The notes under the pieces: generated by a model
Told to the model about the DNA's origin: nothing
Database searches by the model: none
The model's input: only the letters and a program-made list of their open reading frames with translations
Origin: Ignavibacteriota bacterium
Lineage (GTDB): Bacteria; Bacteroidota; Ignavibacteria; UBA10030; BY39
NCBI GenBank assembly: GCA_003327435.1
Contig: QOQV01000001.1
Coordinates: forward strand, 248,001 to 312,000
Reading direction: 5' to 3'
Length of the DNA stretch: 64,000 bases
Translations under genes and position numbers: made by a program
Shown here: in pieces, positions 25,421 to 36,363 of the stretch
How positions within the stretch are numbered: position 1 is the first letter of the stretch
Layout of the letters: each line of letters opens with the position of its first letter

Positions 25421-26041
25421 TTATAGATATTGTTGAGACAAAAATATATCAATAACTTTCTGATAATCTTTTTTATCATTCATACTGAAAAAAGGATTAA
25501 AGTAATTATCTTGGTTTTGTGTAATTTCAACAATTTCTGTATCCATCACTTCAATTAATCGGAGTGGGCTATTTAATTCTAACTGATTACTTCTTATATT
25601 AGCTTCAATCATTGATTCAATTGTTGAGATACAATTCTTAGAATACACTGCACAAAGTGGTTGCAATGTATCATATACTCTGGGGACTATTATATTTTTT
25701 TCAAATTTGCGATTTACAATAAATTCAATGATCTCTTTTTTCATCAGAACCATATCGCAGGAAATAAAAAAATTAAATTTGTTTGAAGAATGCGCCAATC
25801 CAGAATGAATTCCGGCAAGAGGACCTATATTTCTATATACATCCTCATAAGCTTTAACATTTAAAAACGAAAATTTATCTGGCTGGTTTGTGATCACTAA
25901 AATTTCATAAAAAAGTGACTTTAATTTTTCATAAACGATTTCAATAGCGGTTAAGTCAAGGATTTTGATTAATGCTTTATCCTCCCCCATTCTTCTGCTT
26001 TTACCTCCTGCTAAAATAATTCCTGTAATATCCTTATACAT
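25421..26041 (-). CDS. mobA: Molybdenum cofactor guanylyltransferase
   Basis: MobA joins GMP to molybdopterin, giving the MGD form used by the DMSO-reductase family, to which the PsrA-like enzyme in this window belongs. The 206-residue product begins ITGIILAGGKSRRMGEDKAL, the nucleotide-binding signature, and has YEDVYRNIGPLAGIHSGL and FFISCDMVLMKKE, where the Asp coordinates Mg. It ends the Moco operon and overlaps the MOSC gene by eight bases. Confidence 0.92.
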   Translation of the reverse strand: MYKDITGIILAGGKSRRMGEDKALIKILDLTAIEIVYEKLKSLFYEILVITNQPDKFSFLNVKAYEDVYRNIGPLAGIHSGLAHSSNKFNFFISCDMVLMKKEIIEFIVNRKFEKNIIVPRVYDTLQPLCAVYSKNCISTIESMIEANIRSNQLELNSPLRLIEVMDTEIVEITQNQDNYFNPFFSMNDKKDYQKVIDIFLSQQYL

Positions 26042-26489
26042 CTATTGGTATCAATTTTTCAACTATAACTTCATCACCAACATTAATTTTACCACCGGAA
26101 ATCACTCTTGCAAAAATTCCTTCGCGAGGCATAACACAATCGCCAGCTTGATAATAAATTGCACATTTTGAATGGCATTCTTTTCCAATCTGAGTAACCT
26201 CCAGCACAGCATTTCCGATAATTAAACGATCACCGATTTTTAGATCCAACAAATTAATTCCTTCGATGGTAATATTTTCCGCAAAAGCGCCCGGTCGAAC
26301 ATTTAATCCGAGTTGCCTCATTTTATCAATGCTTTCAATTGCAAGCAAGCTGATCTGCCGGTGCCAGTTGCCAGAATGTATATCCCCCTCTATTCCCCAA
26401 TTTTCAATTAATATTACAGAATTAACCTGTGTTTTGGGAATACCTTTTTTCTTGCTGATATTTAATGAGATGATTTTTATTTTATTCAT
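26034..26489 (-). CDS. MOSC-domain protein
   Basis: MOSC domains bind molybdenum cofactor or a persulfide sulfur. The 151-residue protein is a compact single-domain form with GIEGDIHSGNWHRQISLLA (about residues 30-48), GAFAENITIEGINL and the sulfur-carrying region IGKECHSKCAIYYQAGDCVM with the Cys expected in this family. It lies inside the Moco operon between moeA (4 bp) and mobA (overlap), so a role in Mo/W insertion or sulfur transfer to the cofactor is likely. Exact substrate unknown. Confidence 0.85.
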   Translation of the reverse strand: MNKIKIISLNISKKKGIPKTQVNSVILIENWGIEGDIHSGNWHRQISLLAIESIDKMRQLGLNVRPGAFAENITIEGINLLDLKIGDRLIIGNAVLEVTQIGKECHSKCAIYYQAGDCVMPREGIFARVISGGKINVGDEVIVEKLIPIDV

Positions 26490-26493
26490 AAAA

Positions 26494-27723
26494 TTAATAT
26501 CCTATTTTGAACCAATCTACATTTGTAACATCAACTATTGAACCTCTTGGTAAAAAAGATTTATTTTGTGGAAAATGAATCAAACAATTTGCTAATGCAA
26601 TACTGCCAATCATATGAGATTCTCTTTTCATAATTGGTTCAACATAAACATTTTTGTCACTATAATTTATGTACCTTCCTCTTACGAATTCCATTCTTCC
26701 TACTTTCTTACTTAAAGCAAATAAAAGGGGGGCAGAATCATATTTAGTTGGAACACACTTAACACCCATCATTTTAAAAATTGCGAATCTAACTAACATA
26801 TAAAACGCAACTGCAACAGCAACTGGATTTCCAGGTAATCCGAATAAAAGTTTGTTCCCATTTTTTGCAAAATAATTAGGTTTACCCGGTTTTATAGCAA
26901 TCTTCCAGTAAATTTCATTAAATCCTACTTCAGCAGATGCCTCTTTCACATAATCGTAATCGCCCACAGAAACACCACCTGCTGTAATAATAATATCTGA
27001 AATCCCTGTCGCTTCCTGAATTACATCCTTTATCAAATTTTTATCGTCCTTAATAGTTTTTACAAACACTGGAGTAATACCCAGTGCTTTTAATGCTGTA
27101 ACCAGAAAAGGTCCATTTGAATCACGGATCTCTCCCTCTTTAACTTTTTCTTGATAATCTTTTAACTCATTACCCGTTACGATAATGCTAACTTTTGGTT
27201 TGTTAAATACACGAACCTTTCCTATGCCAAGAAATGCTAACATACTGATTACTGGAGGAGTTATTACTGTATGTTTGTCAAAAACCAATTTACCTTGAGG
27301 GTACTCTTCTCCTATTGCTCTGATATTTTCTTTTTTTTCAGGCACTTTATTAACAATGATATAATCATCTTCTTCAATAACATCCTCTTTCATAATAATT
27401 GCATCAGTATTTTCAGGTACGAGTGCTCCTGTAAATATTTTGAATGTGAAATTTTGTTTGAGTATATACTTATTGGTGTCACCTGCTTGGATAATACCTT
27501 GAATTTTTAACTTTACGGGATTATTTTCTGATGCACTCTTAAGAGCTTTTAAATTTACAGCAAAACCATCAACTGCTGAGGATTTAAAAGCAGGAATTGG
27601 AGTTTTTGTGTGAATTTTTTCTGCTAAAACAAAACCAAGTGATTCAATAAGCGGGAGTTCAACAATGGGAAGCGTCTGTGTATTTTGATTTATTAATTTA
27701 ACAGCTTTGTTAAAATTAATCAT
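26494..27723 (-). CDS. moeA: Molybdopterin molybdenumtransferase
   Basis: MoeA inserts molybdate into adenylated molybdopterin. The 409-residue protein shows PAFKSSAVDGFAVNLKALKS (about residues 44-63), GALVPENTDAIIMKEDV, the GEIRDSNGPFLVTAL segment and the TTAGGVSVGDYD type motif as ITAGGVSVGDYDYVKE (about residues 246-261), plus LFGLPGNPVAVAVAFY. The ATG at 27723 has AAAGG seven bases upstream and yields the family-typical N-terminus INFNKAVKLI; an ATG five codons earlier is possible. It follows moaC-moaB after 18 bp. Confidence 0.93.
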   Translation of the reverse strand: MINFNKAVKLINQNTQTLPIVELPLIESLGFVLAEKIHTKTPIPAFKSSAVDGFAVNLKALKSASENNPVKLKIQGIIQAGDTNKYILKQNFTFKIFTGALVPENTDAIIMKEDVIEEDDYIIVNKVPEKKENIRAIGEEYPQGKLVFDKHTVITPPVISMLAFLGIGKVRVFNKPKVSIIVTGNELKDYQEKVKEGEIRDSNGPFLVTALKALGITPVFVKTIKDDKNLIKDVIQEATGISDIIITAGGVSVGDYDYVKEASAEVGFNEIYWKIAIKPGKPNYFAKNGNKLLFGLPGNPVAVAVAFYMLVRFAIFKMMGVKCVPTKYDSAPLLFALSKKVGRMEFVRGRYINYSDKNVYVEPIMKRESHMIGSIALANCLIHFPQNKSFLPRGSIVDVTNVDWFKIGY

Positions 27724-27741
27724 AGTAGTGCCTTTCATTAA

Positions 27742-28650
27742 TTAGTGTCCACCACCCTCCATCATTTTAAACGAATGAAGGATTGCGGGAAATAATGCAT
27801 CGAGAGATTCTATAACACCTTTTTTTGAGCCGGGTAAATTTACGATCAATGTTTGTTTTCGAATTCCAGCGACTGCTCTTGAAAGCATTGAATATGGTGT
27901 ACGTTCCTGACCATAAGCACGTGCGGCTTCTGGAATGCCGGGCACTTCCCTTTCGATAATCTGTTTCATTGCTTCAGGAGTACAATCTCTTGGACTAAAT
28001 CCAGTACCACCTGTTGTTACAACCAGGTCTAATTTCATCTCATCGGAATATTTCTTTAACTCACTTTTAATCATCTCAACATCATCAGGGATTATCTTAT
28101 AATCCATAACCTCAAGACCTTCTTTTTTAAGTCGTTCAACAATCATTTTTCCTGACTCATCAGATTTCTTTCCAGCGAAAATAGAATCCGACATTACCAG
28201 AACTGCGGAAGTGATTTTTCTATCATAAGATGTTACAAAATCCGATTTACCACCTGATTTTTCAAGCAATTTTATCTCTTTGATTTGCATTGTTTCATCC
28301 AGCATTTTCATCATATCATAAAGTGTGAGGACTGCAACAGAAACAGCGGTTAGAGCTTCCATCTCAACGCCGGTTTTGTAAATCGCCTTTACGGTTGTAA
28401 ATACAACTATTTCATCCTCTTCAAGCTTGAACTCTACTCCTACATAATCTACAGGTAGAGGATGGCAATATGGAATAATTGAGCTTGTATTTTTTGCTGC
28501 CTGTATTGCCGCAACTTTAGCAACCTCAAGTGGATTACCCTTTGGGATTTTATTTTCATTAATCAACTCTATTGTTTCTGGTTTTAATTTCAATATTGCA
28601 CTTGCTTTAGCAGTTCTGAGTGTTTTGATTTTTTTAGATATATCTAACAT
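27742..28650 (-). CDS. moaCB: MoaC-MoaB/MogA fusion, bifunctional molybdopterin biosynthesis protein
   Basis: Residues 1-140 are MoaC, which with MoaA makes cyclic pyranopterin monophosphate; visible motifs are SSIIPYCHPLPVDYVGVEF and KTGVEMEALTAVSVAVLTLY. Residues 145-302 are a MoaB/MogA domain, which adenylates molybdopterin; visible motifs are SAVLVMSDSIFAGKKSDESG, VVTTGGTGFSPRDCTPEA and VNLPGSKKGVIESLDALFPA. The fusion joins early and late steps of the pathway in one chain; MoaCB fusions are known in several phyla. Its ATG abuts the moaA stop codon, with GGAGG just upstream inside moaA. Confidence 0.93.
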   Translation of the reverse strand: MLDISKKIKTLRTAKASAILKLKPETIELINENKIPKGNPLEVAKVAAIQAAKNTSSIIPYCHPLPVDYVGVEFKLEEDEIVVFTTVKAIYKTGVEMEALTAVSVAVLTLYDMMKMLDETMQIKEIKLLEKSGGKSDFVTSYDRKITSAVLVMSDSIFAGKKSDESGKMIVERLKKEGLEVMDYKIIPDDVEMIKSELKKYSDEMKLDLVVTTGGTGFSPRDCTPEAMKQIIEREVPGIPEAARAYGQERTPYSMLSRAVAGIRKQTLIVNLPGSKKGVIESLDALFPAILHSFKMMEGGGH

Positions 28651-29631
28651 TTAACCTCCAATTTCAATCATCGAATTATTTTCCTGATTTACAAGTTCTT
28701 CAATTTCAGGATGCATAAACTTTTTCTGTCTTAATGTTTCAACGATAACTTTTTTTAATTCGGAATCGGTTGTGTTTGAACGAATCAATTCTTTCAGGTT
28801 TTTTTCAGCCGGGAAGAAAAGGCAGGTTTTTAACCATCCATCGGCTGTAAGTCGTAATCTCCTGCAATCAGAACAAAAATGTTCAGTAATAGAAGTTATA
28901 AATCCTATCCTACCTTTAAATTCTTTTATTGTATAATTTTTTGCTACCGATTCAGAGTTTTCTATTGGAGTTAATGTATATTTCGATGAGATTAAATTTA
29001 TCATTTGCGAATAAGGTAAAAACCTTGCATTTGTCCAGCCGTTAGATTTAAACGGCATATACTCAATGAAGCGCAATTCTAAATTTTTATCCTTCACAAA
29101 TTCTACAAAATCCAAAATTTCATCATCATTTATACCACCCATAACCACAACATTTAATTTGACTGGCGATATGCCTGCATGCAAAGCGGTATTTATACCA
29201 CTGAGTACATCGTCAAAGTTATCGCGCAGTGTGATTCTGCGAAACTTATCTTTACTTAAAGTATCCAGACTGATATTAACTCCATCCAAGCCAGCAGATT
29301 TCAAATCGTTCACATAATTTTTTAAAAGAATTCCGTTTGTGGTTATTCCAACATTTTTTATACCTTCAATTTTTTTATGAGATAAAATAAGCGATGATAA
29401 ATTCTTCCGTACGAGAGGTTCACCTCCTGTGATTCTGATCTTCGTTACACCTAACTCAGCAAATAACTTTGCAAGCTTTGTTATTTCTTCGAAAGATAAG
29501 ATTTCACTATGAGGTTTAAGTTCAATACCATCTGAAGGCATACAATATACGCAACGCAAATTGCATCTATCAGTCACAGATATTCTCAGGTAGTTATGTA
29601 ATCTACCATATGTATCGATGAGTTTATTCAT
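28651..29631 (-). CDS. moaA: GTP 3',8-cyclase
   Basis: MoaA is a radical SAM enzyme that starts molybdopterin synthesis from GTP. The 326-residue protein has the SAM cluster motif CNLRCVYC (Cys 23, 27 and 30), ITGGEPLVRKNL, and the C-terminal substrate cluster CSDCRRLRLTADGWLKTC (C-x2-C-x13-C), all diagnostic. Its start lies inside the end of the upstream lipoprotein gene (eight-base overlap), so the two are probably translationally coupled. moaD and moaE are not in the window. Confidence 0.95.
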   Translation of the reverse strand: MNKLIDTYGRLHNYLRISVTDRCNLRCVYCMPSDGIELKPHSEILSFEEITKLAKLFAELGVTKIRITGGEPLVRKNLSSLILSHKKIEGIKNVGITTNGILLKNYVNDLKSAGLDGVNISLDTLSKDKFRRITLRDNFDDVLSGINTALHAGISPVKLNVVVMGGINDDEILDFVEFVKDKNLELRFIEYMPFKSNGWTNARFLPYSQMINLISSKYTLTPIENSESVAKNYTIKEFKGRIGFITSITEHFCSDCRRLRLTADGWLKTCLFFPAEKNLKELIRSNTTDSELKKVIVETLRQKKFMHPEIEELVNQENNSMIEIGG

Positions 29632-30106
29632 TTTTCAATTTATTAATTAAATCCACAACAGTTGCTTGAGCAATTGGCATATCACAGCTCAACCAGTACA
29701 GAAAATGATTTTTATAAAAGAAGTAATGTGCCTGCCCCATTCCAAGGCACATAGATAAAGGTTGAGAATTAATTTCATATGCGTGGAAATGTCCGAATAC
29801 TTCATTTCCATCACTAATCAACTCAACCATTTTATTATAACCGGCTACTGCATCGTTTGTATCTGAATAAAAGGAAACATACAAAATTGCTTCACCATTT
29901 TCACCTTTATAAAAAATTATACTGTTATCGACAGGAGTAACAGATTTTCCATGAAGTTTATCTATCACCTTTTGAGCTTCTTCACCAGAAATTTGTTTTG
30001 TTATTCTCATTCCATGCAACTCATCAAAAGGTTGAAATTTATTTGTTCCTTTCTGGGAACAACCAAATATTAAAACTGCAAATATAAATGTTTTTATGTA
30101 TTTCAT
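29624..30106 (-). CDS. Unrecognised lipoprotein, first gene of the Moco-riboswitch operon
   Basis: The 160-residue product has a lipoprotein signal (KYIKTFIFAVLIFGCS) with Cys 16 as the acylated residue. The mature part has about 140 residues with FQPFDELHGMRITKQISGEE near the start, AEAILYVSFYSD-like strands, and an unusual aromatic stretch GMGQAHYFFYKNHFLYWLSC. I do not recognise a family. It is the first gene after the Moco riboswitch and overlaps moaA, so it should be made when cofactor is scarce. A role in molybdate scavenging or in checking a periplasmic molybdoenzyme is possible, but nothing in the sequence proves it. Confidence 0.7.
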   Translation of the reverse strand: MKYIKTFIFAVLIFGCSQKGTNKFQPFDELHGMRITKQISGEEAQKVIDKLHGKSVTPVDNSIIFYKGENGEAILYVSFYSDTNDAVAGYNKMVELISDGNEVFGHFHAYEINSQPLSMCLGMGQAHYFFYKNHFLYWLSCDMPIAQATVVDLINKLKNE

Positions 30107-30164: not shown

Positions 30165-30177
30165 ATTTGAAAAATAC

Positions 30178-30337
30178 AGATTCTCCTTTCCAAATCCCAA
30201 AGGGATGTCCGTGAACGGACGCCGGGAGGCTGAACCGTTTCCAGTTCAACCCTGAAGATGCATATTAGCATCTTGAGTCCTTAGACCCATCGGTTACATT
30301 TCCATATCGTTTCGATTTAGGAAATCTAACTCGGAGT
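30178..30337 (-). promoter_or_regulatory. Moco riboswitch (molybdenum/tungsten cofactor-sensing RNA)
   Basis: The minus-strand leader begins ACTCCGAG (30330-30337) and contains a series of clear hairpins: ATTTCC...GGAAAT, AAGATGC-taatat-GCATCTT, TGAACTG-GAAA-CGGTTCA, GTCCG-ttca-CGGAC and ATCCC-ttt-GGGAT. The conserved single-stranded elements GCCTCCCG and TTGGAAAGG match the core I know from the E. coli moaA Moco RNA motif, in the same order and with the hairpin directly before GCCTCCCG. All genes downstream are Moco synthesis genes and an intrinsic terminator follows, so transcription would stop when cofactor is bound. Whether it prefers Mo- or W-cofactor cannot be decided by eye. Confidence 0.8.
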
Positions 30338-30388
30338 TTATATAAAAGAACTTTTTAATTATAAGAATAATTTTTGAAAAAGAAAATT

Positions 30389-31042
30389 TTAACAACCTTC
30401 CTTCTTTTTCTTTTTCTGAGTACCGACTTGTGGTGTAACCTGTTTTGGCATTTCGAGTTTTGGTAAGGTTTGCTTAATTGTAACATTTTCCTCTTTACCC
30501 GTCTGCGGAGAACCACCAAAATACTTACTCACCTCTTTAATCTTCTCAAAGTGCTTTACTTCATCCGGAGAAGGATTTTGAGATATTGTGGGAAAGAGAA
30601 TTTTATCTTTCCACTCCTCAAGTCCACCTTTCAGCATATATGCATTCCGATATCCTTTTGCCACGAGAAGGAACCAGGCTTGAGCCGAGTGTATTCCACC
30701 TTCAGAATATAAAATTATTTTCTCAGCAGGAAGGAAGGTATAATCACTTAACATCGTTAGCTGAATATTTTCAGCTGTCGGTATATGATATTCTTCAAAT
30801 TCTTTTTCACTCCGCAAATCTATTAATCGATAATCTGATTTACCCTGAATAATCCAATCAGCTAATTCCTCAGCGGTAATATGGTCCAACTCCTTTTGGA
30901 TTATTAAAGCAATTTCCTTTGTATCAATTTTAGCATATGCATCTTTATATGGGTTTCCTGCGAATATTGCAATTATACCTAATAGTAATGCAACTGCTGC
31001 AAGTTTTTGTTTGATATTTAATTTGCTAATAAAACTTTTCAT
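30389..31042 (-). CDS. Membrane-anchored rhodanese-like protein with a single C-terminal cysteine
   Basis: The 217-residue protein has an N-terminal anchor (LAAVALLLGIIAIFAG), a short linker, a rhodanese domain (about residues 54-150: ITAEELADWIIQ, YRLIDLRSEKEFEEYHIPTA, YMLKGGLEEWK), and a low-complexity tail ending with five Lys and EGC. In active rhodaneses the loop reads C-x-x-G-x-x-S; here it is YSEGGIHSAQA, with Ser where Cys should be. The only cysteine in the whole protein is the last residue. It ends an operon with polysulfide reductase-like genes and two YeeE/YedE sulfur transporters, so sulfane-sulfur handling on the periplasmic side is likely, perhaps by the terminal Cys or as a non-catalytic binding subunit. 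Confidence 0.8.
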   Translation of the reverse strand: MKSFISKLNIKQKLAAVALLLGIIAIFAGNPYKDAYAKIDTKEIALIIQKELDHITAEELADWIIQGKSDYRLIDLRSEKEFEEYHIPTAENIQLTMLSDYTFLPAEKIILYSEGGIHSAQAWFLLVAKGYRNAYMLKGGLEEWKDKILFPTISQNPSPDEVKHFEKIKEVSKYFGGSPQTGKEENVTIKQTLPKLEMPKQVTPQVGTQKKKKKEGC

Positions 31043-31054
31043 ATTTTCAATCCT

Positions 31055-31639
31055 CTATTTCTTCATTTTTTTCTCAACAAATTCAGCACCGATAAAGCCG
31101 CCAACTGCCATAAGAACTACCAAAAAAACAATTAAACCATAAGGTATATTTAATAACTGCGGTAAAGTTAATTGACCCATATCAGAGGAGTAGTAAAAAT
31201 TTTTGATTAATGGGAAAACTTCACCAAAAGCAAAAATACCGGCAACTACGCCAATTAAAAATACAAGGGCATCAATTTTTCCAGTTGAAACGGCAACACA
31301 GGAGGTTCCTGGGCAATAACCACCAATTACAAACCCAATCCCAAGTATTAAGCCACCGAGAATTTGTGGTATTAAATAAGTAGGAGTTAGATATACGAGT
31401 GAGAGATTTATCAGACCTAACACTCCAAGATAATACAATCCAAGCATAGCTGTTACGATGGCTGTGAACATTACTTTGAAAACGCTCATATCTATAAAGT
31501 AAAATTGAGCTGTAAGTTTTTTAGCGCTTCCGAAACCAGCTCTTTCGAGGAAGAAACCGAAACCTATTCCGATTAAGAAAGCAACAACTAAACTGAAGTC
31601 GTCGCCAAATAAGCCATATTTGAAGAATGGTGCGTTCAT
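31055..31639 (-). CDS. YeeE/YedE-family sulfur transporter, second half-size subunit
   Basis: YeeE/YedE proteins move thiosulfate or related sulfur species across the inner membrane through conserved cysteines. The 194-residue product has about five hydrophobic helices, GIGFGFFLERAGFGSAKKLT near the start and GFVIGGYCPGTSCVAVSTGK in the middle, with the Cys pair of the family. I start at the ATG at 31639, whose AGGAGG lies eight bases upstream (31648-31653) and which overlaps the stop of the preceding subunit (ATGA); an ATG two codons earlier is too close to that site. The two half-size genes together match one full-length 350-400-residue YeeE. Confidence 0.88.
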   Translation of the reverse strand: MNAPFFKYGLFGDDFSLVVAFLIGIGFGFFLERAGFGSAKKLTAQFYFIDMSVFKVMFTAIVTAMLGLYYLGVLGLINLSLVYLTPTYLIPQILGGLILGIGFVIGGYCPGTSCVAVSTGKIDALVFLIGVVAGIFAFGEVFPLIKNFYYSSDMGQLTLPQLLNIPYGLIVFLVVLMAVGGFIGAEFVEKKMKK

Positions 31640-32178
31640 TGCCATTGCCTCCTCATAAAATAAGCGAATGCATAAGCACCAGCGAAGACACACATCATAA
31701 ATGCCCAGCTACCGACATTCAGCAGTGCTCCACCAGTAAGTGCCTGCCCGCTTGTACAGCCGCGTGCGAGTTTTGCACCAAAACCCATAAGTGCACCACC
31801 AATAAAAGCAAACAAAAGTCGGCTTGAATTAGAAACACGCGGACCTTTTTCGATTCCTTTTTTTATTCTACCTGCTAATGCACCTGAAAGCAAACCGCCT
31901 GCAAAAACACCAATAACTTCAAATACTAACCAGTCTTTTAATGGACTTTTAGTTCCATCACCAAGGTATTCGGAATAAAATTCGTTTGATTTTACATGTT
32001 CGGGTGAGAGCTTATCAAGTGCTGCTGTAATTGCAGAAGAAAAAGCACCAGAAGCACCTAAACCTCGCCCCATAATCACAAATGAAAGAAGCAAAACCAA
32101 TCCTAACCCAATCCCTGCTAAATATGGATTAGAATAAGGCTTTGGTTGAAAAGTATTTTCATTTTCTGTTTGATTCAT
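31636..32178 (-). CDS. YeeE/YedE-family sulfur transporter, first half-size subunit
   Basis: This 180-residue membrane protein forms the first half of a YeeE/YedE-type transporter. After a polar N-terminus it has GIGLGLVLLLSFVIMGRGLG, then a periplasmic stretch, GVFAGGLLSGALAGRIKKGI and the family motif GFGAKLARGCTSGQALTGGA with the conserved Cys. It follows the NrfD-type subunit gene after 17 bp and overlaps the next half-transporter by four bases. The gene order reductase-transporter-rhodanese argues for uptake of sulfur compounds made or consumed by the reductase. Confidence 0.87.
   Translation of the reverse strand: MNQTENENTFQPKPYSNPYLAGIGLGLVLLLSFVIMGRGLGASGAFSSAITAALDKLSPEHVKSNEFYSEYLGDGTKSPLKDWLVFEVIGVFAGGLLSGALAGRIKKGIEKGPRVSNSSRLLFAFIGGALMGFGAKLARGCTSGQALTGGALLNVGSWAFMMCVFAGAYAFAYFMRRQWQ
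31648..31653 (-). promoter_or_regulatory. Shine-Dalgarno AGGAGG that fixes the start of the second YeeE/YedE gene
   Basis: AGGAGG on the minus strand lies inside the last codons of the upstream half-transporter gene, eight bases before the ATG at 31639. It is one of the strongest ribosome-binding sites in the window and supports translation reinitiation between the two subunits. Confidence 0.75.
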
Positions 32179-32195
32179 AAAAATAATCCTTATTA

Positions 32196-33146
32196 TTATT
32201 TTAACAATTGTGCATTGAACCAGTGACTTACCTGTCCAGCATAAACAATAACAAACCGAAGAATTAAACCACCAACAATAACCATAATCGGAGCAATTGG
32301 TGTATGTGGAATTTTATTACTTACTGCCATAATTTGTATTATTAAAGGAATAATAATTCCTAATCCAACCACAAAAACCCAGAAAGCTGGTGCATAACTA
32401 CCATTAAGAAGAAGTTTAGCAGCATCAATGTGTACCTGAGTCGAAGTGAGAAGTCCGATTAAAAACAGAATTAATACTATCAATTCAAGTGATAGGAACA
32501 CATTATCAGCTTTTGCAAGAAGGTGACTTTCATATCTACTTTTTGCAATCAAATGAATAAACGCAGCTGCTGTTGAAAGGCCTGAGAGTAAAAATAATAT
32601 CCATAATGTTGAACTATTCCATAGTGGACGTGCACCAAGTGAGCTTAAAAGTACGCCTGTATAGATTCCAAGTAGTGCGCCAGAAATCATACTGGCAATA
32701 CCAATATTTCGTACCGCTACAGGATGTGAGTTAATTTTTGTTGATAGATCTTCTAAAAAAGGAAATTTGTTGGAAAGAAATTTTGGAATCCTAATTAAGA
32801 TATTCAAAAATAGTACTGGATAAATCAATAACAAAATCCAGGAGCCCCAGGACATAGGCGATTTTATTTTGAAAGTAGTATAAACACGCCAAACATATGC
32901 TTTATGTTCAAGATCCAGGAAAAGAGCAATCATTCCTGCTGTTAAAAATATTAAACTAACAAAAGGTATTTTATAGCAGGAGCACTCTACATCTTTTGTT
33001 CGACCTTTGAATAAAAAATATCCTGAAATTATCATCATTCCCGCAACTATACCACCTAAAAACAAATAGACGGGAATTTCCCAGTTCCAGATTGAGAGGA
33101 ATTGGTCAATCGATGGATTCATTCTTGTATTTGTTATCTCGTTCAT
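32196..33146 (-). CDS. NrfD/PsrC-type membrane subunit of a molybdenum sulfur reductase
   Basis: PsrC-like proteins anchor the PsrAB part to the membrane and exchange electrons with the quinone pool. The 316-residue protein has about eight hydrophobic helices, beginning WNWEIPVYLFLGGIVAGMMI, the usual NrfD start, and has LDLEHKAYVWRVYTTFKIKS and MSWGSWILLLIYPV, corresponding to the quinone-site region. It lies two bases downstream of the ferredoxin gene and is followed by the YeeE/YedE pair. The direction of electron flow (sulfur reduction or oxidation) cannot be told from sequence. Confidence 0.9.
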   Translation of the reverse strand: MNEITNTRMNPSIDQFLSIWNWEIPVYLFLGGIVAGMMIISGYFLFKGRTKDVECSCYKIPFVSLIFLTAGMIALFLDLEHKAYVWRVYTTFKIKSPMSWGSWILLLIYPVLFLNILIRIPKFLSNKFPFLEDLSTKINSHPVAVRNIGIASMISGALLGIYTGVLLSSLGARPLWNSSTLWILFLLSGLSTAAAFIHLIAKSRYESHLLAKADNVFLSLELIVLILFLIGLLTSTQVHIDAAKLLLNGSYAPAFWVFVVGLGIIIPLIIQIMAVSNKIPHTPIAPIMVIVGGLILRFVIVYAGQVSHWFNAQLLK

Positions 33147-33148
33147 AA

Positions 33149-33688
33149 TTACTCCAGGTAAAAAATTTGTGGTTTCGTACCAGCTTCAGGTAAAACTGAA
33201 TGATGTTTCCTTGAGTTTAATAATCTGTTAACTTCAGAATTAACATCATCAAGGTCTCCAAAGGTCATACAATAAGTCGGGCAGACCGATACACAAGCCG
33301 GGTCCAGTCCTTCTTCAACTCTATGTATGCAGAATGTGCATTTATCCACATAACCTTCTGGATGAACAAATCGCGCGTCGTATGGACACGATGCGATGCA
33401 GGCTTTACAACCGATACAAAGTTTATGCTCAACAAGTACAACACCACCCAGATTATGAATATGACTTGCACCTGTTGGGCAACAATATACACAGGGTGGA
33501 TTATCACAATGATTACATCGTTCACTTCGGATTTCTAAATTTACTGTTGGGAAGCTACCTCGAGCATCCTGAACTATCCAATCGCGATTGAAACCTTCTG
33601 GAACATTGTTTTCGGTATTGCAAGCAACAACACAGTCCATACATCCAACACATTTTTTTGTGTCAATTACCATTGCATACCTTGCCAT
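33149..33688 (-). CDS. Four-cluster ferredoxin subunit, PsrB/PhsB-like
   Basis: The 179-residue protein carries four [4Fe-4S] motifs that pass electrons between the molybdenum subunit and the membrane subunit: CVGCMDCVVAC, CNHCDNPPCVYCC, CIGCKACIASC and CTFCIH with CVSVC. Length and order fit PsrB/PhsB/DmsB. The ATG at 33688 has GGAGG six bases upstream; that site sits in the last codons of the PsrA-like gene, so the two are coupled. Next comes the NrfD-type subunit. Confidence 0.92.
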   Translation of the reverse strand: MARYAMVIDTKKCVGCMDCVVACNTENNVPEGFNRDWIVQDARGSFPTVNLEIRSERCNHCDNPPCVYCCPTGASHIHNLGGVVLVEHKLCIGCKACIASCPYDARFVHPEGYVDKCTFCIHRVEEGLDPACVSVCPTYCMTFGDLDDVNSEVNRLLNSRKHHSVLPEAGTKPQIFYLE

Positions 33689-33689
33689 A

Positions 33690-35891
33690 TTATACCTCCA
33701 CCTCAATAGTTACAAAATTCACATTCATTCCAGTACCTCCCATCAACGGATCTATTACATATCGAGTTAGTAACTGCGAATCACTTGCACCTTTATTATA
33801 AGCATATCTTAACATTTTAGAATTATGACCGAAACCATGTACAATGTAAACACAATCCGGTCTAATTCTATTAGTTGATTTAATTTTTATCCTGTTACTC
33901 ACAACACCATCCTGATTTTTTAATTTTACATAATCACCTGATTTTAAACCAAGTCGTTCTGCAATAACATGATTTATCCAAACTTCATTTTCTTGATACA
34001 TATCCATTAATATTCGATTTGTTTGAGTTCGACTGAAAGAGTGGACTGGAGCGCGCCCATATAGCAACCTGAAATAGCCAGGTGGAGCTTCTTCAGGTTT
34101 TTTATATTTTGGGACTGCATCGAACCCCGCTTGAGCAAGCTGAAGTGAATAAAATTCTATTTTACCACTTGGAGTTGGGAATTCTGCTGGTACACCCTGA
34201 TCAAAGTAAATTGGTTGAGGTGTACCTTTAATTATACCTTTCGTTCTCAATTCTTCAAAATCATATCCTCCAGCAGTTAATCTGTACTTTAAATAATCCA
34301 CAATATTTTCCCAGGGGTAATATTCATTTAATCCAATCTTCTCTGCAAGTTTTTTTGCAATCCACCAGTTAGGTTTTTGATCGTGTGGCGATTCGACAAC
34401 TGGCTGGCGAAGAGAGATAAACGGTTCCCTGAACCATTCTACATTCAAATCATCATAACGCTCAAGATAGATTGATTCAGGTAGGACGACATCAGCCCAT
34501 CCAGCAATTTCGCTTGGAATAACATCTATCACAACAAGCAAATCTAAGTTTTGAATTGCCTTAATTGTTTCAGCCTCGTTGGGTAAAGCATGAATCAAAT
34601 TTGTTGCATAAACAAACCATCCTTTTATAGGATACGGACTGCCAGATATTGTAGCATCACGAATTCCATTTGTTATAGTTTCGATTGCAAAAGGATATTT
34701 TGAATTTGGATTATCTACTTTAGGTTTATTTGGTTTTGGATATGGTGGATAAGGATATTCAGGCAAATCCATGCTGACGGGTGTATAAAAACCTCCTTTT
34801 CTACCCCAACTCCCAAGAAGAGCATTCAGAAGTGCAATAGCTCTACTTCTTTGTGTATCATCACCATACCAGGTGACATGCCGTCCTGGATGTACAAGAG
34901 TTGCAGGTTTATGTTTCGCCATTTCGTACGCAGTTCTACGGATAATTTCTGGTTCGATTCCTGTTTCAGGGTAAGCCCACTCGGGAGTGTAGTTAGAAAT
35001 TTCATTCTTAAACTTTTCAAAACCGAATCCATATTTTTCCACATAATCTCTGTCATATAATTTTTCATTTACTATAACATTCATCCAGGCAAGCAATAGT
35101 GCAATATCTGTTCCCGGTTTAATAGGTAAATAGTACTTTGCTTTACTGGCAGCTATAGAAAACCTTGGGTCAACGACTATAATTGATGCACCATTTTGAA
35201 TTGCTTCTGAGAATTCCTGCACCTGAGTGTTGTGCATATTTTCACCAAGGTGATAACCCAAGAAGACAAGACATTTAGCGTTTTTAATGTCGGTTCTTTC
35301 CGGAGAACTAATATCCTCACCAAAAGTTAATTTAAACCCCACATCTCTTGGACCTCGACATTGTGCAAACGATGGTGCTGCAAAATTATGCGTACCAAAT
35401 GCTTTAAGTGTGTGTTTCAAAAAATTCCCACCTATTCCATGACTGAACATTGCAACTGATTCAGCTCCATACTCTGACTTAATGGCTTGCATCTTCCGAG
35501 CAATGTATTCAAGTGCTTCGTCCCAGGTAACTGCAACCCATTCTTCTTTTCCTCTATCGTTCTTTCTGATTAAAGGTGATTTTAACCTATCCGGATCATA
35601 ATGCGCGCCTACTCCACCAGTACCACGTGGACATAATCTTCCCCTACTCAGAGGATCTTCCGGATTACCTTCTAACTTCCAGAGCTTTCCATCCCTTATA
35701 TAAGCGATAACACCACACTTCCAGAAACAAATATCACAAAATGTTGGAATCTTTTGCACACCATTTCTAAAAATCTTTCCAGAAAATTGCTCTACACTTT
35801 CTGTAAGCTTCCCAACCGCTCCAAGTGTAGCTGCACCTGAAATCGTTGCAGCGCTTATTTTTAAAAATTTCCTTCTTGAAATATTATCCAT
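33690..35891 (-). CDS. Molybdopterin oxidoreductase, PsrA/PhsA-like (polysulfide/thiosulfate reductase) catalytic subunit
   Basis: The 733-residue enzyme has a twin-arginine signal (SRRKFLK near residue 5), so it is folded with its cofactor before export. The [4Fe-4S] motif is Cys 52, 55, 59 and 87 (CDICFWKC...CPRG). A Cys in SFAQCRGPRDVG (about residue 178) is at the place of the molybdenum ligand in PsrA/PhsA. The C-terminal MGD-binding domain is visible in PVHSFSRTQTNRILM and VYIVHGFGHNSKML. Neighbours are PsrB- and PsrC-like subunits, sulfur transporters and a rhodanese, so polysulfide, thiosulfate or tetrathionate is the likely substrate. The adjacent Moco operon provides its bis-MGD cofactor. 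Confidence 0.88.
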   Translation of the reverse strand: MDNISRRKFLKISAATISGAATLGAVGKLTESVEQFSGKIFRNGVQKIPTFCDICFWKCGVIAYIRDGKLWKLEGNPEDPLSRGRLCPRGTGGVGAHYDPDRLKSPLIRKNDRGKEEWVAVTWDEALEYIARKMQAIKSEYGAESVAMFSHGIGGNFLKHTLKAFGTHNFAAPSFAQCRGPRDVGFKLTFGEDISSPERTDIKNAKCLVFLGYHLGENMHNTQVQEFSEAIQNGASIIVVDPRFSIAASKAKYYLPIKPGTDIALLLAWMNVIVNEKLYDRDYVEKYGFGFEKFKNEISNYTPEWAYPETGIEPEIIRRTAYEMAKHKPATLVHPGRHVTWYGDDTQRSRAIALLNALLGSWGRKGGFYTPVSMDLPEYPYPPYPKPNKPKVDNPNSKYPFAIETITNGIRDATISGSPYPIKGWFVYATNLIHALPNEAETIKAIQNLDLLVVIDVIPSEIAGWADVVLPESIYLERYDDLNVEWFREPFISLRQPVVESPHDQKPNWWIAKKLAEKIGLNEYYPWENIVDYLKYRLTAGGYDFEELRTKGIIKGTPQPIYFDQGVPAEFPTPSGKIEFYSLQLAQAGFDAVPKYKKPEEAPPGYFRLLYGRAPVHSFSRTQTNRILMDMYQENEVWINHVIAERLGLKSGDYVKLKNQDGVVSNRIKIKSTNRIRPDCVYIVHGFGHNSKMLRYAYNKGASDSQLLTRYVIDPLMGGTGMNVNFVTIEVEV

Positions 35892-35895
35892 ATTT

Positions 35896-36363
35896 TTATC
35901 CTTCTAAAACTAAACTATCTACTTGATTTAATATTTGTTTTATTTTTGAACAATTACTAAAACTTTCATAAACTAAGCAATTTCGACATTTTGCACTTTC
36001 GCAAATTAGATTATTAAGTTTATGCATCCAGCAAGGTTTTGTGTAATCTTTAAATGCAACGCATTTTCGCTTCACATCGTCAGGACATTTTTTAAGTGCC
36101 CAGCAAGGTATCAAAGCTAAAATTCGCTTAATACCTGCAATACTTATCTTATCCTTATTAATCATTTCCCTTATACATCTAAGTCGCTCTATATCATCTT
36201 CAGAATATTTTCTATGTAACGAACCTTTTCTAAATGGTATTATTAATCCTTCATTCTCATATAAGCGCAACATCTGGACTGATAATCCTACAAGCTGAGC
36301 AGCTTTACTAATTTTGTGAACTGGCTCGCTGGATTTAATAGTATATTCATCTTTTTTAAACAT
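35896..36363 (-). CDS. MerR-family regulator with a Cys-rich C-terminal domain
   Basis: The 155-residue protein has a MerR winged-helix domain (KISKAAQLVGLSVQMLRLYE, GLIIPFRKGSLHRKYSEDDI) and dimer helix, followed by a C-terminal region with eight Cys arranged CWALKKC, KRKC, KPCW, ICESAKCRNC and SNC. This spacing resembles the 'two-CW' Cys-Trp module found in other redox or sensory proteins. It may bind a metal or iron-sulfur cluster, or sense sulfur species. It is the first gene of the sulfur-reductase operon, four bases before the PsrA-like gene, so it probably controls the operon and itself from the 265-bp gap upstream. Confidence 0.85.
   Translation of the reverse strand: MFKKDEYTIKSSEPVHKISKAAQLVGLSVQMLRLYENEGLIIPFRKGSLHRKYSEDDIERLRCIREMINKDKISIAGIKRILALIPCWALKKCPDDVKRKCVAFKDYTKPCWMHKLNNLICESAKCRNCLVYESFSNCSKIKQILNQVDSLVLEG

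Follow-up and report, generated by a model that had tools for sequence, protein, structure and literature searches.

Among the closest described systems is the YeeE transporter of S. thermophila (StYeeE), in which thiosulfate is proposed to pass along three cysteines (C293-C91-C22) to C17 of the cytoplasmic partner YeeD (PMC11073785). How YeeE-like transporters receive sulfur on their periplasmic side is poorly understood; a periplasmic DsbA with a CxxC motif at its extreme C-terminus is encoded adjacent to soxT1A (PMC11582611), and sox systems also adjoin the YeeE-like SoxT and octaheme tetrathionate reductase (PMC11237559, PMC11582611). The locus described here lies in a 64,000-nucleotide stretch of DNA from an Ignavibacteriota bacterium (the window) and encodes two YeeE-type half-transporters, YEEb and YEEa, followed by a rhodanese-like protein (the tail protein; Table 1). 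The probable role of the tail protein is to carry sulfur on the outer side of the cell membrane, not to catalyze sulfur transfer.

By fold, the tail protein is a member of the rhodanese superfamily. Rhodanese is its sole Pfam match, with no SoxY domain (PF13501) detected, and the D75/R77 and GG-L-xx-W motifs of rhodaneses are retained. In an AlphaFold2 model built from 14 relatives, the rhodanese fold is predicted confidently and the tail is disordered; the closest solved structures in a comparison with PDB folds are ordinary rhodaneses. In the loop Y112-S113-E-G-G-I-H-S, Ser113 occupies the persulfide position; lacking a nucleophilic loop Cys, the protein does not qualify as a rhodanese sulfurtransferase enzyme. 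An earlier note on this DNA had described Ser in place of the loop Cys and a sole Cys at the last residue, and the translation bears out both, the single Cys of the protein being residue 217. The five Lys that the note placed before this Cys are present, but not in direct contact with it, as E and G separate the last Lys from Cys217 (KKKKK-E-G-C). The flexible arm that it envisaged agrees with the model, in which the arm is predicted to be disordered and pLDDT falls below 50 at residues 183-188 and 205-217. Four Lys precede the N-terminal anchor and predict an N-in/C-out orientation.

Table 1. Features of the tail protein locus (window positions).
Feature	Position	Strand	Basis
Pseudo-rhodanese with C-terminal Cys arm (tail protein), 217 aa	30389..31042	-	ORF reading (31042 down to 30389, ATG start); PF00581, 65.7 bits (cut-off 22.2); family alignment
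N-terminal transmembrane anchor, ~residues 10-32	30947..31015	-	model helix 10-27; hydropathy; K/R counts
Rhodanese domain, residues 56-146	30605..30877	-	Pfam; model pLDDT 85-91; PDB fold matches are rhodaneses
Former active-site loop YSEGGIHS, residues 112-119	30686..30709	-	translation; position 113 in 81 relatives
Ser113 codon	30704-30706	-	within former active-site loop
Pro/Lys-rich arm, predicted disordered, residues 178-217	30392..30511	-	pLDDT; terminal Cys conservation
KKKKKEGC arm ending	30392-30415	-	translation
Cys217 codon	30392-30394	-	translation
YEEa, YeeE/PmpB-like N-terminal half, 5 predicted TM	31055..31645	-	PF04143; alignment A3; PDB profile match 6leo/8j4c
YEEa invariant Cys (GGYCPGT), C112, equivalent to StYeeE C91	31313-31315	-	alignment A3; PDB profile match
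YEEb, YeeE/PmpA-like C-terminal half, membrane protein	31636..32178	-	PF04143; alignment A4; PDB profile match
YEEb invariant Cys (RGCTSG), C141, equivalent to StYeeE C293	31756-31758	-	alignment A4; PDB profile match
NrfD/PsrC-like membrane subunit	32196..33146	-	PF03916, 143.7 bits
PsrB-like 4Fe-4S subunit	33149..33706	-	Fer4_11
Psr/Phs-type molybdopterin catalytic subunit, twin-Arg N-terminus (SRRKFLK)	33690..35891	-	PhsA model, 517 bits
MerR-type regulator, Cys-rich	35896..36363	-	PF13411; same place in related loci

A first search for relatives gave 17 loci, and the K-x-x-x-E-G-C ending is invariant in all of the complete proteins aligned. One peptide of that search derived from the tail; the profile was then rebuilt without the tail (A2), thus avoiding a bias towards tail-bearing matches. 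Profile A2 was searched in genomes from the phylum and class of this bacterium, and in two additional phyla to which loci titled Gemmatimonadetes and Acidobacteria had led. With this tail-free profile, relatives are found in three phyla, namely Bacteroidota, Gemmatimonadota and that of locus L007 (titled Acidobacteria), and the tail-Cys architecture is found across three bacterial groups rather than confined to one genome. Set aside were L010, which has a degraded N-terminus and no adjoining YeeE, and five ordinary catalytic rhodaneses (L125, L127, L128, L140 and L148).

A Cys lies within the last three residues of 80/85 complete, deduplicated, YeeE-linked family matches, rows that are related by descent and whose count is not usable as a p-value; the background of terminal Cys is 6/825 unrelated ORFs from the same loci. 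A chance terminal Cys is ruled out by this background together with the retention of the residue across deep divergence. The tail is also not a genome-wide motif, as KEGC-stop occurs only at the tail protein gene and in one chance frame of nine residues. Among 81 tail-bearing relatives, position 113 is Ser in 56, Ala in 12, Gly in 10, Cys in two and Val in one. Because the loop Cys is replaced by Ser, Ala or Gly in nearly all (78/81), catalysis by the mechanism that defines rhodaneses is impossible for these proteins. At the level of sequence, both the loss of the loop Cys and the conservation of the tail Cys are established. In a test for correlated change of the loop Cys and the tail Cys, the tree offered too few independent changes to be informative.

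The five exceptions among the 85 are accounted for. Two are ordinary Cys-loop rhodaneses that stand nearby, and two (L004 and L038) are broken genes in which KKKKKEGC or KKKKREGC is still encoded past the break. In the remaining exception (L124/L144), a large fusion, the tail is borne by the upstream neighbor and reads KKRKSVGC; in L144 this carrier is a metallo-beta-lactamase-like/rhodanese protein, the beta-lactamase part being assigned by sequence motifs. The earlier note had regarded close orthologs with a loop Cys, or without the terminal Cys, as counting against its proposal; neither pattern is seen, the loop Cys being confined to 2/81 relatives and the terminal Cys being present in 80/85, with the exceptions accounted for as above. 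In L004 (2776-3426, plus strand) a single in-frame stop, which may be a nonsense mutation or an assembly error, stands directly ahead of the intact KKKKKEGC tail. In L144 (6608-11253, minus strand) a fusion of 671 aa combines YEEa with a pseudo-rhodanese and with a double rhodanese whose Cys loop is intact; it adjoins the metallo-beta-lactamase-like/rhodanese protein, of 700 aa, with its Cys tail.

The sequence of the tail varies while its Cys is constant (KKKKEGC, KRVVGGC, VRMGC, RRRGC, RRRRTC), also in the high-GC Gemmatimonadota. Distant relatives end in KRVVGGC, VRMGC, KKKAGGC, RRRGC, RRRRTC and KKKLEGC, and three relatives have one or two residues beyond the Cys: GGCGW (L138), GGCG (L139) and VGCS. 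The 12 residues preceding the terminal Cys contain a mean of 4.5 K/R; basic residues are few in the VRMGC tail, and L046 ends in VEVEEGGC. At L075 (5628-6915) and L076 (7-1314), both on the minus strand, a tandem pair of tail-Cys pseudo-rhodaneses has almost the same tail twice, both ending in VEVEEGGC, although the domains differ (KKKKKRKPEGGC/KKKKKKKPEGGC).

YEEa and YEEb are transporter proteins of the YeeE/PmpAB type: each is a Sulf_transp half with a conserved Cys. The alignments contain exactly one invariant Cys per half, and the position of StYeeE C22 is Gly. A YeeD/TusA partner is absent from the operon, and no TusA/YeeD (PF01206) is found in the genome itself (G000, 98.6% complete), which encodes the YeeE pair, the control search being positive in 11/14 genomes. 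With Gly at C22 and no TusA/YeeD, the transporter thus lacks the usual cytoplasmic partner and gains a single-Cys protein, predicted to be periplasmic, on its C293 side. The gene for the tail protein lies directly after YEEb-YEEa nearly everywhere, so that YEEb-YEEa-tail protein is the constant unit across loci and the adjacent enzyme changes. Several lineages encode YEEa and the tail protein as a single polypeptide; these fusions have both Pfam domains, retain the terminal Cys and require 4-5 changes of the fusion trait on the tree. Linkage and fusion to YeeE are, like the Cys pattern, read directly from the genes. YEEb was not found in G296 and G875, where the tail protein stands near a molybdoenzyme; YeeE may therefore not be strictly required. 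For G296, which has Psr and two tandem tail-Cys proteins, the missing YEEb is not firm because the operon is at a contig end.

Hydropathy and charge predict that the rhodanese domain and the tail are in the periplasm. YEEa contains five hydrophobic segments, whose charges indicate an N-out, C-in orientation; in its fusion to the tail protein, one more segment, the sixth, precedes the rhodanese domain, which would thus be periplasmic. Over fused and unfused proteins, K/R are more frequent before the anchor than after it in 55/78, equal in 14 and fewer in nine. The structure model of YEEa is poor (pLDDT 59.7) and was not used.

The operon is ordered MerR, molybdopterin subunit, 4Fe-4S subunit, NrfD, YEEb, YEEa, tail protein. 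The setting named in the earlier note, a sulfur reductase and sulfur transporters, holds in that the tail protein has a molybdoenzyme of the Psr/Phs type and YeeE-type proteins as neighbors. The score of the catalytic subunit with the PhsA model is below the cut-off of 694 bits, and ArrA scores 161.8 bits; these scores point to a Psr/Phs-like enzyme. The enzymes beside YEEb-YEEa-tail protein are of three types: (i) the Psr/Phs-type molybdoenzyme, (ii) an octaheme tetrathionate reductase (TIGR04315, 567.7 bits) with cytochrome b561, and (iii) a 3-MST-like rhodanese with an intact catalytic YCHIGQQ loop. The unit occurs without Psr in L061-L063, L072-L074, L090 and L091-L097. In the last of these groups (L091, 8406-13075, minus strand, and L092-L097) MerR, octaheme tetrathionate reductase, cytochrome b561, YEEb and a YEEa-rhodanese fusion are encoded together, which suggests that in these bacteria octaheme tetrathionate reductases work with a transporter of the YeeE type. 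A molybdenum-cofactor riboswitch (window 30167-30348, minus strand; RF01055, 73.8 bits) directly follows the rhodanese gene on its 3' side, upstream of a moaA-moaC/B-moeA-mobA cluster (25421-30106). The first gene past the riboswitch (29624-30106, minus strand) encodes a protein of 160 aa that starts like a lipoprotein (FGCSQKG) and matches no Pfam or NCBIfam model.

The reading favored here, at somewhat better than even confidence, is that of a membrane-anchored periplasmic pseudo-rhodanese whose Cys-tipped basic arm relays sulfur between sulfur enzymes and YeeE. The rhodanese fold, its persulfide Cys lost, would be retained for docking or as a scaffold, and the chemistry would be relocated to the lone Cys that tips a flexible arm of 40 residues, rich in Lys and Arg. 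Cys217, as the putative sulfur carrier, would be loaded with sulfane sulfur, in the form of a persulfide or S-thiosulfonate, by a sulfur enzyme of the periplasm, the presumed donor being the Psr/Phs-type reductase in this genome and the octaheme tetrathionate reductase or catalytic 3-MST-like rhodanese elsewhere. The arm would give this sulfur to, or receive it from, the first Cys of a two-part channel, C141 of YEEb, followed by C112 of YEEa. The basic residues of the arm may attract anionic sulfur species and hold the thiol deprotonated. By analogy with YeeE, import is the more likely direction of transfer.

Rhodanese domains can serve purely as protein-binding modules, and the arm may likewise be an attachment device that carries no sulfur, its tail binding anionic phospholipids and its Cys, acylated or in a disulfide, tethering the pseudo-rhodanese to the membrane, itself or YeeE. 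The basic character of the residues before the Cys and the placement of a TM-helix-anchored protein next to YeeE, to which it is repeatedly fused, fit such a device. This explanation is judged unlikely: the tail protein already has a TM anchor, the basic residues are variable where the Cys is invariable, and the Cys is retained in transporter fusions, in which extra anchoring is pointless. A role confined to the reductase is the least probable of the explanations weighed here; the arm would feed polysulfide or persulfide to the Psr-type active site, and the YeeE neighborhood would serve another purpose. The gene content of G296, and similarly of G875, agrees with it, as does a periplasmic placement alongside the twin-Arg catalytic subunit of Psr; by contrast, several lineages have YEEb-YEEa-tail protein without Psr, and the partner in the fusions found is YeeE, never a Psr subunit.

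It is also improbable, to a degree between these two, that the cluster respires arsenate or other oxyanions via the Psr-like enzyme and that the arm and YeeE move arsenite, thioarsenate or selenium species. In Melioribacter roseus, a MerR-preceded psr/phsA (the MerR-psrABC locus) is induced by arsenate (PMC5492636) and no growth occurs on S0 or thiosulfate (PMC5492636, PMC3534657), which counts against the sulfur relay favored above. The MerR of the present operon is Cys-rich, and YedE models, whose relatives are linked to selenium, are matched here. Against a metalloid substrate, the catalytic subunit scores far higher with PhsA than with ArrA (517 vs 162), and the partners elsewhere, octaheme tetrathionate reductase and catalytic 3-MST-like rhodaneses, keep to a sulfur theme.

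The fold and the neighbors of the tail protein are of known families; what is rated as new is the proposed swinging-arm sulfur carrier on a dead rhodanese. No description of the family was found in a search of open-access literature. A broader proposal, on which confidence is evenly divided, is a new class of periplasmic carrier in which the C-terminal Cys arm of a dead rhodanese loads YeeE/PmpAB from outside as a 'zeroth cysteine', without YeeD; the partner enzymes would be interchangeable, and the arm could be placed on another scaffold. The family is a conserved, sometimes transporter-fused candidate for sulfur hand-over to YeeE and, as a single Cys is available to mutate, periplasmic hand-over is directly testable. 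If the relay reading is true, the tail protein is a clear case of an enzyme fold that has no catalytic residue and keeps its role in sulfur metabolism through a Cys moved to a flexible arm.

Compared to PspE, GlpE and 3-MST, the tail protein has the fold and conserved motifs in common, whereas their loop Cys is Ser, Ala or Gly in nearly all of its family. YEEb and YEEa correspond to the C- and N-terminal halves of YeeE/TsuA and PmpAB, with Cys matching C293 and C91 (PMC11582611). Unlike YeeE/TsuA with YeeD/TsuB, the present system has no C22 and no YeeD/TusA, and has a periplasmic tail-Cys protein instead. The DsbA and SoxS partners of SoxT are similarly proposed to present sulfur to YeeE-like transporters in the periplasm (PMC11582611). 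These partners differ in having a thioredoxin fold and Cys pairs, as opposed to a rhodanese fold and a single Cys. MoaD and ThiS, to which the earlier note likened the arm, also bear sulfur at a C-terminal tip; however, they have a ubiquitin-like fold and a Gly-Gly thiocarboxylate activated by ATP. The likeness is wrong in kind, as the arm here ends in Cys (E-G-C), and membership is rejected on the rhodanese fold. The SoxY arm is closer and is the best analogy for how the tail protein may work, although no PF13501 match is found in the genome, in a search that had no positive control. SoxY, a carrier of the periplasm, has a flexible arm that contains Gly and bears a single Cys close to its C-terminal end, in the motif GGCGG, to which the tail variants GGCG and GGCGW are close. 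The tail protein differs in its rhodanese-fold scaffold and TM anchor, its strongly basic arm and a Cys that is normally the last residue; its predicted flexible, Cys-bearing C-terminal arm is the SoxY-type feature, and the analogy applies to the arm only.
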